A DNA stretch of 48,042 nt from Mucilaginibacter cryoferens (lineage in GTDB: Bacteria > Bacteroidota > Bacteroidia > Sphingobacteriales > Sphingobacteriaceae): the NCBI RefSeq assembly GCF_014205845.1, contig NZ_JACHCR010000034.1, positions 1 to 48,042 on the forward strand. Reading direction: 5' to 3'. How positions within the stretch are numbered: the first letter of the stretch is position 1; each line of letters starts with the position of its first letter. A model generated the notes under the pieces. It was not told where the DNA came from. It saw only the letters and a program-made list of their open reading frames with translations, and made no database searches. Shown piece by piece: positions 9,060-40,078 of the stretch. The translations under genes and the position numbers were made by a program.

Positions 9060-9141
9060 CGTTATTCGTTTTTTTAGCTATCAAAATCCGAAATCCAACA
9101 TCCTCAATCCGAAATCTCCCAAAAGCTGTCCGTCCGTCCGC
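9060..9141. repeat. Family C string followed by a family B half-element
   Basis: 9081-9121 holds three variants of AAATCCGAAATC/ATCCTCAATCCGAAATC. Directly after it, 9126-9141 reads CTGTCCGTCCGTCCGC, the left boundary of family B with one extra TCCG. No right boundary follows. This is just beyond the stop of the epimerase gene. Confidence 0.7.
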
Positions 9142-22063: not shown

Positions 22064-22190
22064 CTACATACGCCATAAAACGCCATTTTATTAAATATAC
22101 CCCATTAATGCCAGGAGTTACAAAGCCGTACCTTTGCTAGGTACAGGTTAATTGGTAGGTTGGGCATAGCATGGGGCATACCTGTAACAG

Positions 22191-22330
22191 GCCTGTCCGC
22201 AAAATAGCGATTCCTCTCTGCGGACGGACACCCCAGACACTCCTGCGAGTCAAAAATAAATCCGAAATCGAAATTCCCAAATCCGAAATTAAAACGATCT
22301 CCTATCTCAAATCTCAAATCTAACATCTAT
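22191..22330. repeat. Family B element followed by a family C string
   Basis: GCCTGTCCGC (22191-22200) and GCGGACGGACACCCC (22220-22234) form the family B part. From 22257 to 22325 come AAATCCGAAATCG, AAATCCGAAATTA, and ATCTCAAATCTCAAATCTAA. The last of these runs into the promoter of gldA. The B-then-C neighbouring also occurs, in the opposite order, at 9081-9141. Confidence 0.7.
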
Positions 22331-22339
22331 TTTTACCGC

Positions 22340-34930: not shown

Positions 34931-35629
34931 GTGGAAAACTACGAAAATAAGATAGGTATAAAATCATGGGCAGAAGAAGATCGTCCGCGCGAGAAATTAA
35001 GCGGACAAGGCCGCAGGGCACTAACTGATGCCGAACTGATAGCCATTCTCATAGGCTCGGGCAGTCGCAACGAAACCGCTGTTGAACTGAGTAAACGTAT
35101 CCTTCATCACTACGAAAATGACCTCAATAAGCTTGGCAAGGCTTCTATAGCCGAGCTTTCAAAGTTTAAAGGAATAGGAGAGGCCAAGGCTATATCTATT
35201 ATAGCCGCCCTTGAAATTGGTCGCCGCCGTAGTGATACCGAAAGCCAGGCCCCGGATTTTATCAATTCGAGCAAAGATGGCTACAATATTATGCGCCGCC
35301 ATTTAATGGATCTTAATCACGAAGAATTTTGGGTTATATTATTGGGCCGGTCGCAAAAAGTGCTGGGTAAAGAACTGATCAGCAAGGGAGGATTAACGGC
35401 TACGGTATGTGATCCTAAAATTATTTTCCTCTCTGCCATACAATACCAGGCCAGTGGTATCATACTGGTGCACAATCACCCGTCGGGCAATCTGAAAGCC
35501 AGTTACGAAGATATTTCCCTCACCCGCAACCTGGTTAACGCCGGCCGCATGCTGGAGATTAAAATATTCGATCATCTTATCATCACCGATAACGGCTATA
35601 CGAGTTTGGGAGATGAGGATCTAATGTGA
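34931..35629 (+). CDS. radC: RadC family protein (JAMM/MPN+ domain)
   Basis: GTG at 34931 is chosen as the start. An upstream in-frame ATG at 34874 lies inside the rpsT terminator. The 232 residues begin 'MENYENKIGIKSWAEEDRPR' and hold a helix-hairpin-helix region ('SKFKGIGEAKAISIIAALEI') followed by the JAMM metalloprotease-like core with His181, His183 and Asp194 in 'HNHPSGNLKASYED'. Despite the name, a repair role of RadC is disputed, and the biochemical activity is not settled. It is a standard core-genome protein, here not in an obvious defence island. Confidence 0.92.
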   Translation: MENYENKIGIKSWAEEDRPREKLSGQGRRALTDAELIAILIGSGSRNETAVELSKRILHHYENDLNKLGKASIAELSKFKGIGEAKAISIIAALEIGRRRSDTESQAPDFINSSKDGYNIMRRHLMDLNHEEFWVILLGRSQKVLGKELISKGGLTATVCDPKIIFLSAIQYQASGIILVHNHPSGNLKASYEDISLTRNLVNAGRMLEIKIFDHLIITDNGYTSLGDEDLM

Positions 35630-35692
35630 TTTTTTGATTTTTGATTTTTGATTTTTGATTTTGGATTTCGGAGTTTCGATTTCGGATTTGGT
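35630..35692. repeat. Family C string, left of the ATPase/TOPRIM pair
   Basis: Four copies of GATTTTT in tandem, then GGATTTCGGA, GTTTCGATTTCGGATTTGG. This is family C read on the opposite strand to the copy at 37575-37648. Confidence 0.75.
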
Positions 35693-35699
35693 ACAAAGG

Positions 35700-36272
35700 T
35701 TAGTTTTTCAGTTTCTCATCAAATTCAACAATGAAGTCTTTGAAGCACGAACACTTTGCTTCGATTTTATCGATATCTAATTGTTTGAATATTTCGGGGC
35801 AATGAGATTCATGAAATCGTTTTTTTGATTTGGAGGTAATTCTTTTAAGCTCTCCTTTCGGGTCTTTCACTTTCATAGGGTCACTTTTGAATTTGTGATC
35901 GATGGAATGGATTTTATTAAAGGTTTCAATATCTCCAAATATCAAAGCTTCTAATTCCCATATATTGAGCAACAAAATGCCTGCATTGTTTACTAATTCA
36001 TCTAAATCTTTAAACCATTGCCTTTTAGCTTGTAGTTTATCTTCCTGTGATTTAAATGCATCTAAATCCCGGATGTATACAATAAACTTACACTCTTGAT
36101 CTTCAAATTCGATAGGTAAACTTTTCTTTATTTTAGGACTATCTAATTGATGGCCTTTTATCCCTTTAACCAAAGGCTTGAAAAGTACTCTGTCTTTATA
36201 TCGTTTTTCTAAAAGGTTTTTTATGGCGGAAGTATCATTGGGATCTTCACCTACAAGTCCTACTTTTATCAT
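35700..36272 (-). CDS. TOPRIM-like protein coupled to an ATPase
   Basis: The 190-residue chain from ATG 36272 begins 'MIKVGLVGEDPNDTSAIKNL', with Glu9 in a 'GE(D)' turn. 'FIVYIRDLDAF' follows, with Asp69-Leu-Asp71, and 'LLNIWELEALIFGD' with Glu106. The order of Glu, then DxD, then a 'W/YE.EA' helix recalls TOPRIM domains of the DUF4276/RloB/OLD type, which cut nucleic acid with a metal ion. This is not proof. A longer frame (ATG 36296) would overlap the ATPase stop by 25 bases and is less likely. It is coupled to the ATPase by TAATG. The role may be the effector of a two-gene defence system. Confidence 0.6.
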   Translation of the reverse strand: MIKVGLVGEDPNDTSAIKNLLEKRYKDRVLFKPLVKGIKGHQLDSPKIKKSLPIEFEDQECKFIVYIRDLDAFKSQEDKLQAKRQWFKDLDELVNNAGILLLNIWELEALIFGDIETFNKIHSIDHKFKSDPMKVKDPKGELKRITSKSKKRFHESHCPEIFKQLDIDKIEAKCSCFKDFIVEFDEKLKN

Positions 36273-37486
36273 TATTCCAAATCTGAAAGCATCCAATAGT
36301 CACTAAAAAAGCCAACTTCCTTCATGTACTTTTGGGCTTTGCTGATCTCTTTATCAGATAGGTGTCGTATTTGGGTACCTTTCTCTAAATCATAATATGC
36401 AATGAGGATATGGTCTAATTCTTCGGGGCTTAAATGATCTAAAGCTTTAGGGGAATGAGTGGAGATAATAATTTGTTTTTCTTCTGACTGTTCTTTCAGA
36501 AAATCCATTAGTAGATTGAATTGGTGGGGGTGGATGCCTAACTCAGGTTCTTCTATTAGTATCAATCCATCTGTTACTGTAATTTCTGAAATTATATAAA
36601 ATAGCCGTTTGGTCCCATCTGACAATTGTGACCAAGGGAGCCAATTTCCATTTACTTTAAAATCAATTTTAATATTTTCAATAATTACGGATTTGTCCTC
36701 TCGATATAAATTGATATTACCATTAAATCGCAGGTCCTCAATATTGGTATAAAGTTTTATGTTATTTATGGTTTTGTCTTGGATTTTTAAAAGCCCGAGT
36801 ATATCGGAAGATGAAGCGTTTTCAATTTTATTTTTAGGCTCAGCGTCTTCAGTGTACTCGTCAAAAAAAATTTCGACTTTTGAGAGAATTTCCTCCATAA
36901 AGTTTAATACCCGTGGAAAACTCCAAAAAACAAATCCGTCTCCGGTATTGGCTTTAATAGTTCCCGGAATATCGACGCATGCTAAATTATCGGGTAAGCT
37001 GTATTTAAGATAATAACTATAAATGTTTTGGTAGCCCAAGATATAAAATAGGCCCATAGATATGTTAGTGTATCTGATTTGCCTATTTTGAAATTCAAAG
37101 TCTTTTGTTAGGGTTGAGCCTTGGGAATTATCAAACACTTTTTTATTATCGATAAAAAATTTTTCTGAAAATTTAAGCCTATTGGATGGATACTCCTGTT
37201 CTGATTTGGTAAAAAAATCTCGTTCTACTTCGATTGAAAATGAATGCTGTTCATCAGCGTTAAATTCCAGTTTAGAGTATTTGTAAGAGGCTTTGAGGTT
37301 CGATTTAATTCGAATCGCTTGGTAAATGAAGTCCATGAAATTTGATTTGCCAGAACCATTCTTCCCAATTAATATATTTAACCCCTTTTTTAAATCAATA
37401 GTCAAATCTTCAATAGATTTAAATCCTTTAAGATGAACACTATTTAAATATACTCTTGGACGTTCTTCCGCTGTTTCAGTTGGCAT
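36272..37486 (-). CDS. SMC/RecF-like AAA ATPase, partner of the TOPRIM-like protein
   Basis: A 404-residue ATPase with Walker A 'GKNGSGKSN' (41-49), a signature-like 'LSDGTKR' (288-294), Walker B 'LILIEEPELGIHP' (308-320) and the H-loop 'ISTHSPK' (341-347). This is the AAA_15/21 (OLD/RecF-like) type. The middle (50-285) is unlike a coiled coil and poorly conserved in character. 'VYLNSVHLKGFKSIEDLTID' is the usual strand before the P-loop. The stop and the start of the next gene overlap as TAATG. It has a TACATTTG promoter box at 37528-37521. The pair is AT-richer in appearance than the flanking housekeeping genes, consistent with gain by transfer. Confidence 0.8.
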   Translation of the reverse strand: MPTETAEERPRVYLNSVHLKGFKSIEDLTIDLKKGLNILIGKNGSGKSNFMDFIYQAIRIKSNLKASYKYSKLEFNADEQHSFSIEVERDFFTKSEQEYPSNRLKFSEKFFIDNKKVFDNSQGSTLTKDFEFQNRQIRYTNISMGLFYILGYQNIYSYYLKYSLPDNLACVDIPGTIKANTGDGFVFWSFPRVLNFMEEILSKVEIFFDEYTEDAEPKNKIENASSSDILGLLKIQDKTINNIKLYTNIEDLRFNGNINLYREDKSVIIENIKIDFKVNGNWLPWSQLSDGTKRLFYIISEITVTDGLILIEEPELGIHPHQFNLLMDFLKEQSEEKQIIISTHSPKALDHLSPEELDHILIAYYDLEKGTQIRHLSDKEISKAQKYMKEVGFFSDYWMLSDLE

Positions 37487-37520
37487 ATGTTAAAATGGGA
37501 TATTACTACACACTTTTACA

Positions 37521-37528
37521 CAAATGTA
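37521..37528 (-). promoter_or_regulatory. Promoter box TACATTTG of the ATPase/TOPRIM pair
   Basis: An exact TAnnTTTG match on the minus strand, 35 bases before the ATG at 37486. The same eight bases serve the hypothetical gene at 44162. Confidence 0.5.
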
Positions 37529-37574
37529 TTTGTTTTTCTATAGATATTCGCTTTTCGCAATATTACTGCAAAAC

Positions 37575-37648
37575 ATTTTCAAATCTTCAAATTCCCAAAT
37601 CTTCAAATTAAATAAATCCTAAATCCGAAATCCCACATCCGAAATCTT
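37575..37648. repeat. Family C string, right of the ATPase/TOPRIM pair
   Basis: ATTTTCAAATCTTCAAATTC, CAAATCTTCAAATTAAAT, then CCTAAATCCGAAATCCCACA and TCCGAAATC. It is in the opposite orientation to 35630-35692 and runs into the promoter of pheT. Confidence 0.75.
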
Positions 37649-37678: not shown

Positions 37679-40078
37679 ATGAAGATATCGTATAACTGGC
37701 TTAAAGAATTTATTGATACTGATAAAACTCCACAGGAAATTTCGATCATCCTTACCGGTACCGGTTTGGAGGTAGAGAGCCTGGAAAAAGTGCAACCCAT
37801 CCCCGGCGGCTTAGAAGGCCTGGTAATTGGGTTTGTAAAGGAGTGTGTTGCCCATACCAACTCCGATCACCTGCATGTAACCAAGGTTGATGTAGGTGGT
37901 GCCAAAGACCTGCAAATTGTTTGTGGTGCCGCTAATGTGGCAGCAGGCCAAAAAGTAGTTGTTGCTACTGTAGGTACAACTATTTACCCAACTGTGGGCG
38001 AACCTTTTGGTATTAAAAAATCAAAGATCCGTGGCGAAGTATCTGAAGGGATGATTTGCGCCGAAGACGAGATAGGGTTGGGTACCGATCATGCAGGTAT
38101 CATGATACTTGATGAAGATGCCGTAGTTGGCTCATTGGCAAAAGATTACTTTAAGCTTAACGACGATTATATGTACGAGATAGGTTTAACCCCTAACCGT
38201 GCAGATGCAACTTCGCATTTGGGTACAGCCCGCGATATAGCTGCATTTTTAAAGATTGGCATAAAGAAACCCGATGTAGGTGAATTTAAGGTTGATAATA
38301 CCAGCCGTACCATTGAGGTTGTTGTAGAGAATGAGCAGGCAAGTCCGCGCTACTCTGGCTTAACCATTAGCGGTGTTGAGGTTAAAGAATCGCCAAAATG
38401 GCTAAAGGAGCGATTGGCTGTTATCGGTATTCGTGCTATTAATAACATTGTGGATGTTACCAATTATGTATTACATGAGTTGGGACAGCCGCTGCATGCT
38501 TTTGATGCCGATGAAATAACAGGAGGTAAGGTGCTTGTTAAAAACTATGCCGAAGGAACCATTTTTAAAACTTTGGATGATGCTGATCGCAAATTATCTG
38601 AAAACGATCTGATGATTGGTAACGCCCAGGAACCAATGTGTATTGCCGGCGTTTTTGGCGGTGCAAAATCGGGTGTAAAAACATCTACTGTAAATATCTT
38701 TTTAGAGAGTGCTTATTTCAACTCGGTATCTGTACGTAAAACAGCAAAGCGTCATGGTTTAAAAACCGATGCTTCGTTCCGTTTTGAGCGTGGTACCGAT
38801 CCGGATATGACGGTGTTTGCCTTAAAGCGCGCTGCTTTGCTTATTCAGCAGGTTGCGGGTGGTAAAGTTTCGTCGGAGATCTCTGACCATTACCCGGCCC
38901 CGGTTGCGCCATTTGCTTTTGAGGTAACTTATAAAAATATCGACAGGCTGATTGGTCAGGAAATTACTCATGGCGAGATCAAAGCGATCATTGAGGCGCT
39001 TGATATCAAAATAGTGAATGAAACTGCGGATTCGCTATCGCTGCAAGTGCCTCCATACCGTGTTGATGTTACCCGTGAAGTTGATATTGTGGAAGAGATA
39101 TTGCGTATTTACGGATACAACAATATTCACATTCCAACCCAGATCAGGGCATCGTTAAATAATTCGCAAAAGGCAGAAAAAGATACAGTGCAAAACCAGA
39201 TCTCGGATTTACTGAGTGCTAATGGCTTTAACGAAACATTGTCAAACTCGCTAACCAAATCGGCCTATTCGGATAATCTGGATGGGGCTGTAAAGATACT
39301 AAACCCGTTAAGCAGCGATCTGGATGTAATGCGCCAAACACTGCTTTACTCAGGGTTGGAAGCTATTGCCTACAACCAAAACCGCCGTAGTGCCGATTTG
39401 AAGTTTTATGAATTTGGCAAGGTGTACAGTGTTAAGGATGATAAGTACAGCGAGGTGCAACGTTTTTCGGTATTTATTACCGGTGCCGATGCTGCCGAGC
39501 AATGGAACCAAAAGCAAAAGCCGGTTTCGTTTTATAACTTAAAGGCTATTGTTGATGGTATTTTGCAGCGCTTAAATATTACCGATTTTGTAGTGGAAGA
39601 TGCCACCTGCAGTAAGCTGGCATTTGGTTTACAGTATATGCTTAATGGTAAACAGCTGGTTAAATTTGGTCCGGTTGGTGCCGGTGCTTTGAAAAAGGCC
39701 GATGTAGATAAAGAGGTTTTTTATGCCGACTTTAACTTCGACCTGGTTTTAAACGCGGTGCGTAAAAATGTGATAGTTTACCAGGAAGTTTCTAAGTTTC
39801 CGGCTGTAAGGCGCGATCTTTCTATGCTGATAGATAAGGCGGTTTCTTTTGGTCAGCTGAGGCAGATAGCACAGCGTACCGAGCGTAAGCTTTTAAAGGA
39901 GGTAAGTGTATTTGATGTTTACCAGGGAGATAAGTTGCCTGCCGGTAAAAAATCATACGCGCTGAGCTTTATTATTCAGGATATAGAAAAAACGCTCACC
40001 GATAAAGCCATTGACGCTGTAATGCAGAAATTAATTTATAATTTAGGAAAAGAAGCAGGAGCGGAGATTAGGAAGTAA
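37679..40078 (+). CDS. pheT: Phenylalanyl-tRNA synthetase beta subunit
   Basis: The large subunit of the alpha-2-beta-2 enzyme that charges tRNA-Phe. At 799 residues it is full length. In order: the 'MKISYNWLKEFIDTDKTPQE' start, an EMAP-type tRNA-binding domain (about 40-150), the B3/B4 region, where misacylated tyrosine is edited (about 210-385), a B5 domain (about 400-480), a class II-like core without catalytic residues (about 490-690), and the C-terminal FDX-ACB anticodon-binding domain ('FPAVRRDLSMLIDKAVSFGQ' to 'AGAEIRK', about 705-799). The alpha subunit (pheS) is not adjacent, as is usual in Bacteroidota. Confidence 0.97.
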   Translation: MKISYNWLKEFIDTDKTPQEISIILTGTGLEVESLEKVQPIPGGLEGLVIGFVKECVAHTNSDHLHVTKVDVGGAKDLQIVCGAANVAAGQKVVVATVGTTIYPTVGEPFGIKKSKIRGEVSEGMICAEDEIGLGTDHAGIMILDEDAVVGSLAKDYFKLNDDYMYEIGLTPNRADATSHLGTARDIAAFLKIGIKKPDVGEFKVDNTSRTIEVVVENEQASPRYSGLTISGVEVKESPKWLKERLAVIGIRAINNIVDVTNYVLHELGQPLHAFDADEITGGKVLVKNYAEGTIFKTLDDADRKLSENDLMIGNAQEPMCIAGVFGGAKSGVKTSTVNIFLESAYFNSVSVRKTAKRHGLKTDASFRFERGTDPDMTVFALKRAALLIQQVAGGKVSSEISDHYPAPVAPFAFEVTYKNIDRLIGQEITHGEIKAIIEALDIKIVNETADSLSLQVPPYRVDVTREVDIVEEILRIYGYNNIHIPTQIRASLNNSQKAEKDTVQNQISDLLSANGFNETLSNSLTKSAYSDNLDGAVKILNPLSSDLDVMRQTLLYSGLEAIAYNQNRRSADLKFYEFGKVYSVKDDKYSEVQRFSVFITGADAAEQWNQKQKPVSFYNLKAIVDGILQRLNITDFVVEDATCSKLAFGLQYMLNGKQLVKFGPVGAGALKKADVDKEVFYADFNFDLVLNAVRKNVIVYQEVSKFPAVRRDLSMLIDKAVSFGQLRQIAQRTERKLLKEVSVFDVYQGDKLPAGKKSYALSFIIQDIEKTLTDKAIDAVMQKLIYNLGKEAGAEIRK

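Follow-up and report, generated by a model that had tools for sequence, protein, structure and literature searches.

A two-gene ATPase and DUF4276 pair between radC and pheT of Mucilaginibacter cryoferens as a probable PARIS/OLD-like phage defence system of the HEC-01 kind

In the PARIS system, a hexamer of AriA holds AriB until a phage protein releases AriB, which then cuts tRNA (PMC11455837). AriB, a Toprim protein split from its ATPase, is described as cleaving tRNA at a two-metal site (PMC12409363), and OLD proteins are arranged in a scheme of classes 1-4 with PARIS and its separate genes as the proposed class 4 (PMC10568477). AAA:TOPRIM_OLD pairs have been shown to act as toxin and neutraliser in Escherichia coli, whereas in the BASEL screen a related AAA pair failed to protect against phage (PMC10440598). 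Activity has been reported for HEC-06 and others (PMC12988326), and the archaeal OLD-family ATPase Cran1 is reported to have a cell cycle role and to be apparently not antiviral (PMC12796447). Here we analyse a stretch of 48,042 nt of Mucilaginibacter cryoferens (contig NZ_JACHCR010000034.1; hereafter the window), whose genome assembly comprises 64 contigs and 6.95 Mb, in which the interval between radC and pheT holds, on the minus strand, a pair of genes for an ATPase and a protein of 190 aa belonging to DUF4276. It is likely, in our judgement, that this pair constitutes a self-contained two-gene PARIS/OLD-like phage defence of the HEC-01 kind, in other words an OLD nuclease split in two. The genes concerned are the following.

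36272..37486, minus strand: ABC/SMC-type ATPase of 404 aa, first gene of the operon, AAA_21/AAA_15, with equal scores to the PADLOC models HEC-01A and AriA
35700..36272, minus strand: DUF4276 protein of 190 aa counted from its ATG, candidate OLD-like Toprim nuclease
34931-35629, plus strand: radC, flanking gene
37679-40078, plus strand: pheT, flanking gene

The list of open reading frames confirms by its coordinates what a preliminary description, made by eye from the sequence, had reported, namely an ATPase and a small protein that overlap as TAATG between radC and pheT; the stop codon TAA of the ATPase and the ATG of the DUF4276 protein have one base in common. The order from ATPase to DUF4276 protein, adjacent and on the same strand, is kept in all 12 pair copies compared, and the start of the second gene falls in a range from 7 nt ahead of the ATPase end to 4 nt past it. 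That both genes are AT-richer than their neighbours equally proved correct. Their guanine plus cytosine content (GC) of 0.331 for the ATPase and 0.321 for the DUF4276 protein, as against a mean of 0.433 (standard deviation 0.032) in the 29 other genes of the window, makes them the two lowest of the 31 genes measured from a hand-made list, more than three standard deviations under the remaining 29, and the GC of their third codon positions (0.31 and 0.29) compares to 0.44 in the other window genes. A tRNA search found none in the window or in 12 fetched loci.

The small protein matches DUF4276 (PF14103) with 41.0 bits against a curated cut-off of 30.2, and a profile comparison of the window's subfamily with 26 other DUF4276 loci gave a probability of 98.8%. 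The HEC-01B model of PADLOC finds the protein with an E-value of 1.7e-9 (35.4 bits) and matches 80 of 80 proteins compared. Among known structures, OLD Toprim domains come nearest to its confident structure model, with a modest fold score, and the residues E9, D13, D69xD71, E106xE108 and K139 are conserved. At the level of the residue pattern, the E-x3-[ED], the DxD, the x-E pair and the K of the OLD two-metal site are present. Searches with the small protein against PDB sequences gave no credible match, and by hhalign the window's subfamily did not match 17 OLD, 10 RloB or 6 DUF4435 proteins. When all of DUF4276 was taken more broadly, links appeared to OLD (E 3.5e-5, probability 45) and to RloB (E 6.4e-5, probability 36), both of them weak. 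Profile searches gave no match to AriB or to DUF4435, which we take to be the AriB-type partner of PARIS, and none at E <= 1 to RloB (PF13707). From fold and residue set together we infer that the protein is a candidate OLD-like Toprim nuclease. By eye, the small protein had been placed in none of the known pairs; this holds for AriB and RloB, while DUF4276 and HEC-01B of PADLOC now provide a place for it.

In the ATPase, motifs were recognised by eye that we take to be the Walker A, signature, Walker B, D-loop and H-loop of ABC ATPases. Its structure model (predicted local distance difference test 88) matches the ATPases of retron I-A and PtuA, Rad50, SMC heads and AriA (8v45), with the head closest to SMC and Rad50 structures. 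The PADLOC models HEC-01A (E 3.4e-30) and AriA (E 4e-30) rank equal on this protein, and the class is therefore not settled by the ATPase alone; HEC-01A matches 36 of 36 ATPases, as does the AbiLi model. A C-terminal SDYWxLSDLE tail is nearly invariant, with S395, D396, W398, S401, D402, L403 and E404 fixed in 36 aligned relatives chosen out of 120 listed. The profile and structure searches that had been proposed for both proteins have returned DUF4276, HEC-01, AriA for the ATPase and an OLD-like, modestly scored Toprim match, and not AriB or RloB. Profiles, models and residue set support the initial view that a RecF/OLD-type ATPase is paired here with a Toprim-like protein in the manner of split OLD and PARIS.

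How does the pair then relate to the described systems? For both genes the HEC-01 models of PADLOC rank first or share the first rank, although the score to HEC-01B is modest (35 bits) and HEC-01, a computed candidate itself, was judged by E-value and not by the thresholds of PADLOC. Embedding in Hma or another defence locus, the way in which the class was found and not a structural requirement, is not seen here, where the neighbours are radC and pheT, and the other copies lie, by eye, among housekeeping-looking genes. Because both proteins match HEC-01, the kind to which the pair belongs is already catalogued. With PARIS the pair shares an ATPase and a Toprim-type nuclease, here a candidate one, on separate genes and an ATPase that the AriA model fits as well as HEC-01A, whereas the small protein lacks the match to AriB or DUF4435. 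OLD class 1 and GajA combine an SMC/Rad50-type ATPase with a Toprim fold and the two-metal residue pattern, as does the pair with its probably Toprim-like small protein, but in one chain instead of two genes, and no GajB helicase as in Gabija lies beside the window pair. AbiL/RloAB equally joins an ATPase to a small OLD-Toprim-related protein, which is RloB there and DUF4276 here. By these membership tests, which compare sequences and models, the pair classifies as DUF4276 and HEC-01-like and not as PARIS, Gabija, AbiL/RloAB or single-chain OLD. The same genome encodes a separate single-chain OLD-like protein of 644 aa (AAA_15 plus OLD-like_TOPRIM; G000 C1:507958-508158, L146, 154-2085). An apparent natural fusion of DUF4276 and AAA (P0156, 589 aa) was discarded, since on visual inspection the linker proved to be the ATPase tail in another frame.

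DUF4276 was found in 33 of 198 sampled genomes of the phylum Bacteroidota (E <= 0.001). Thirty loci were inspected, three of which had no usable frame, and a related ATPase lies immediately upstream in 24 of the 27 usable loci, our own counted. Across the 26 other loci, the D of position 69 and the E of position 108 each recur in 25, the E of position 9 in 22 (the other 4 having gaps) and the E of position 106 in 22, while position 13 holds E or D in 15. At position 71, on the other hand, Y stands in 15 loci against D in 8, and at position 139 S stands in 16 against K in 1. The window's branch thus keeps DxD where most of the phylum loci have DxY. In the literature searched, to which preprints and most subscription papers did not belong, so that the pair may still be described elsewhere, DUF4276 is not named, and HEC-01 occurs in five papers, of which one is relevant by its title and has it as a list entry. 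The spread through the phylum with an upstream ATPase, together with this absence of mention, is why the pair matters. If the reading as an immune receptor given below holds, DUF4276 would stand for a widespread group of split-OLD effectors in Bacteroidota that this literature does not describe. The residue set shows what to mutate and the hypervariable lobe of the ATPase, described below, what to swap, which makes putative effector and putative sensor both directly testable.

The small protein occurs in 5 of 61 congeneric genomes. Matches are present in 11 of 251 genomes of the family; the one in G168 is weak and differently placed, those in G074 and G187 are broken by stops, and all three were left out of the set of pair copies. 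A pheT match was obtained in 58 genomes, and 40 stretches before pheT were fetched (the 18 others include our own), 11 of which had no radC before pheT and were not counted. Among the 29 counted, one (G056) has the pair at this site, five have less than 300 bp between the genes and most other intervals span 450-1800 bp in which nothing matches the pair; one with a gap of 6008 bp (L105) was counted only. Copies elsewhere lie upstream of rpsL-rpsG-fusA (G035 and G212), near genes like tatD (G059), gltD (G281), zwf (G275) and lepA (G103), and, in G031, with a repeat-protein gene on one side and a gene for an ABC ATPase on the other, all named by eye; the last position corresponds to the interval 22064-22339 of the window, which is free of the pair. 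By these comparisons the pair has been gained, patchily and at several places. By eye, no integrase was noticed at the pair loci, where no search aimed at integrases was made, and phage and plasmid collections gave no match at E <= 0.01. The search for empty sites that the preliminary description had suggested has therefore yielded pair-free intervals, and neither of the two outcomes it had named as speaking against its proposal, a small-protein model without a Toprim fold and the pair at this locus in all relatives, was obtained, the model being Toprim-like with a modest score.

Some of the loci show features of their own. A GDSL-type hydrolase gene occupies the radC-pheT interval of G020 (L066), which is as close by PheT as G056, and an open frame of 163 codons that of G013 and G031; apparently more than one kind of gene can settle there. 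The G074 copy (L129) is interrupted by stops, has kept the ATPase end alone and adjoins, by eye, a transposase-like frame, and the G187 copy (L131) is broken by stops. In G168 (L130, 4118-5850) a different pair, an ATPase with an EGDTE-type small protein, lies in a type I restriction-like locus and is, by eye, RloAB-like.

In G056, at the same site, the small protein is 88% identical, and the ATPase, which is that of P0123, named M. dorajii, is 78% and 86% identical at its two ends and 39% in the middle. Third-position identity to G056 is 0.55 for the small protein, 0.55 for radC and 0.61 for pheT. As the small protein is thus like radC and near pheT, the pair was probably inherited at the radC-pheT site since before the split from the G056 species. 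Fourfold sites of the pair outside the ATPase middle are somewhat less often identical (34 of 85) than those of radC and pheT together (110 of 206; p 0.04), and a related copy may alternatively have arrived separately.

The divergent middle of the ATPase is a general feature. In 561 pairwise comparisons among 34 loci, identity averages 0.67 for residues 1-55, 0.32 for residues 56-250 and 0.72 for residues 251-404 of the ATPase, and 0.61 for the small protein, the identity of which tracks the C-terminal part (rho 0.59) more than the middle (rho 0.22). ATPase and small protein were assigned to each other in these loci by contigs of the same length, except for one pairing (myungsuensis, with a small protein that is a 153-aa fragment) made by name only, and six were also seen adjacent in the fetched DNA. 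RecF, an ATPase with the same type of head, compared as a control in 30 sequences of the genus, gave 0.87, 0.79 and 0.79 for the three corresponding parts; its ratio of middle to C-terminal identity has a mean of 1.01 and is at least 0.875, versus a mean of 0.44 and at most 0.684 for the pair ATPase. This head type hence does not force a dip in the middle, and since RecF is a conserved housekeeping gene the control does not show what drives it. The presence of the dip here and its absence from RecF suggest that residues 56-250 are a sensor lobe. Compared with G056, identity at fourfold sites of the middle (1 of 15) is below that of radC and pheT (110 of 206; p 0.0003) and of the remainder of the pair (34 of 85; p 0.017), and codons are kept at identical residues in 29 of 73 versus 99 of 167 cases (p 0.007). 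Such low silent identity would fit replacement or old alleles, and can be mimicked by misalignment. Direct exchange of modules between ATPases was not seen: in none of 6555 pairs, from the 115 of 120 listed ATPases that passed a length filter, is the middle more alike than the C-terminal part. Tentatively, and with somewhat less than even confidence, one might see in the pair an immune receptor with constant ATPase ends, nuclease and tail, whose residues 56-250 would be fast-evolving or exchangeable and follow the phage triggers lineage by lineage.

The pair is preceded by a promoter-like element.

37521..37528, minus strand: TACATTTG, a TAnnTTTG box 42 nt ahead of the ATPase start

TAnnTTTG, which we take to be the Bacteroidota -7 promoter box, lies 12-49 nt ahead of the ATPase start in 12 of 12 pair copies and reads TACATTTG in 10 of them, the ATPase starts having been picked to match the window ATPase. 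Within the last 60 nt the box is found in all 12 copies, as against a mean of 0.58 and a maximum of 4 of 12 in shuffled leaders; the unit therefore seems to carry its own promoter when moving. A perfect palindrome, ACAAATACATTTGT, at 37520-37533 covers the box, is common to the window, G056 and G031 (3 of 12 copies) and might be operator-like.

PARIS provides the closest worked example of how such a pair might act. The SMC/Rad50-like ATPase would assemble with the DUF4276 protein and hold it inactive, its hypervariable middle lobe would recognise a phage product, and a rearrangement driven by ATP would free or activate the DUF4276 protein, which would cut nucleic acid by two-metal chemistry and halt the infection, probably at the expense of the cell. 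The substrate of the predicted nuclease may be tRNA, which AriB cuts, or DNA, the target of OLD and Gabija. That phage or host DNA and not tRNA is degraded, within the same class of defence, comes close to an even chance: the nearest structures are OLD DNA nucleases and the residue set is as in OLD, whereas AriB, likewise Toprim and split from its ATPase, cuts tRNA at its two-metal site (PMC12409363), and active-site residues do not separate DNA from RNA. We regard it as unlikely that the pair is a toxin-antitoxin addiction module, in which the ATPase would neutralise a Toprim toxin and selfish transfer, without phage defence, would lead to patchy spread. The patchy distribution agrees with this, as do the toxin and neutraliser pairs of E. 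coli and the related AAA pair unprotective in the BASEL screen (PMC10440598); yet addiction leaves the fast-changing ATPase middle on a constant chassis unexplained. The broken copies of G074 and G187, where loss was tolerated, are compatible with both views. Very unlikely is a housekeeping or DNA-repair role of a RecF/Rad50-like ATPase with a processing nuclease, for which the head closest to SMC and Rad50 and Cran1, reported as apparently not antiviral (PMC12796447), can be cited, but the pair is absent from 56 of 61 congeneric genomes, sits at different places and is hypervariable where RecF is not.

The preliminary description had, in addition, proposed a mobile or gained cassette boxed in by one repeat on both flanks in opposite orientation. 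The repeats themselves were readily retrieved, beyond chance.

35657..35689, minus strand: left-hand copy of the AAATCCGAAATC-type repeat, following radC; an intergenic element native to the genome that we do not count with the pair
37614..37646, plus strand: right-hand copy of the AAATCCGAAATC-type repeat, preceding pheT; it occurs in relatives at sites without the pair as well and is likewise not counted with it
9084-9116 and 22258-22290: further members of the AAATCCGAAATC family in the window

Exact AAATCCGAAATC stands at 35678-35689 (minus) and 37621-37632 (plus), adjoined in each case by copies with one mismatch; with at most one mismatch it occurs 11 times in the window as against 0.38 expected from shuffles, and the inverted flanks of the pair match over 26 nt at 85%. 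A cassette of genes and repeats that ends in inverted AAATCCGAAATC could draw on the abundance of AAATCCGAAATC in the genome, on the gained and AT-rich pair and on the score of the inverted flanks of the window copy, 14 versus a maximum of 12 in 40 shuffles that preserve base content only. In the 11 other pair copies, however, inverted flanks do not exceed all shuffles, the left flank of G056 at the same site is a different sequence, and ACATCCGAAATC precedes pheT without the pair in G017, G013 and G031, three of the five pair-free intervals displayed. Repeat-like sequence also follows radC in some pair-free intervals, and G017 has inverted arms of like style within 174 bp. The flank comparison of 12 copies and the repeats at pair-free sites thus largely refute the repeat-bounded mobile cassette, to which we leave next to no probability, so that of the original proposal the gain (5 of 61 congeners, pair-free radC-pheT intervals) stands and the repeats as cassette ends (1 of 12 copies) do not; the repeats belong to the interval, and the pair came to lie between them. 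AAATCCGAAATC is an ordinary genome-wide intergenic palindrome family, possibly terminator-like or like repetitive extragenic palindromes, with 69 exact copies, as against 2 of a reversed control pattern, in 44 clusters. Where a cluster contains both orientations, the minus copy comes before the plus copy within 500 bp in 9 of 9 cases, and 30 of 30 inspected matches (of the 69) lie outside long frames, often straight after a stop codon. Direct repeats in the flanks reach raw scores of up to 11.
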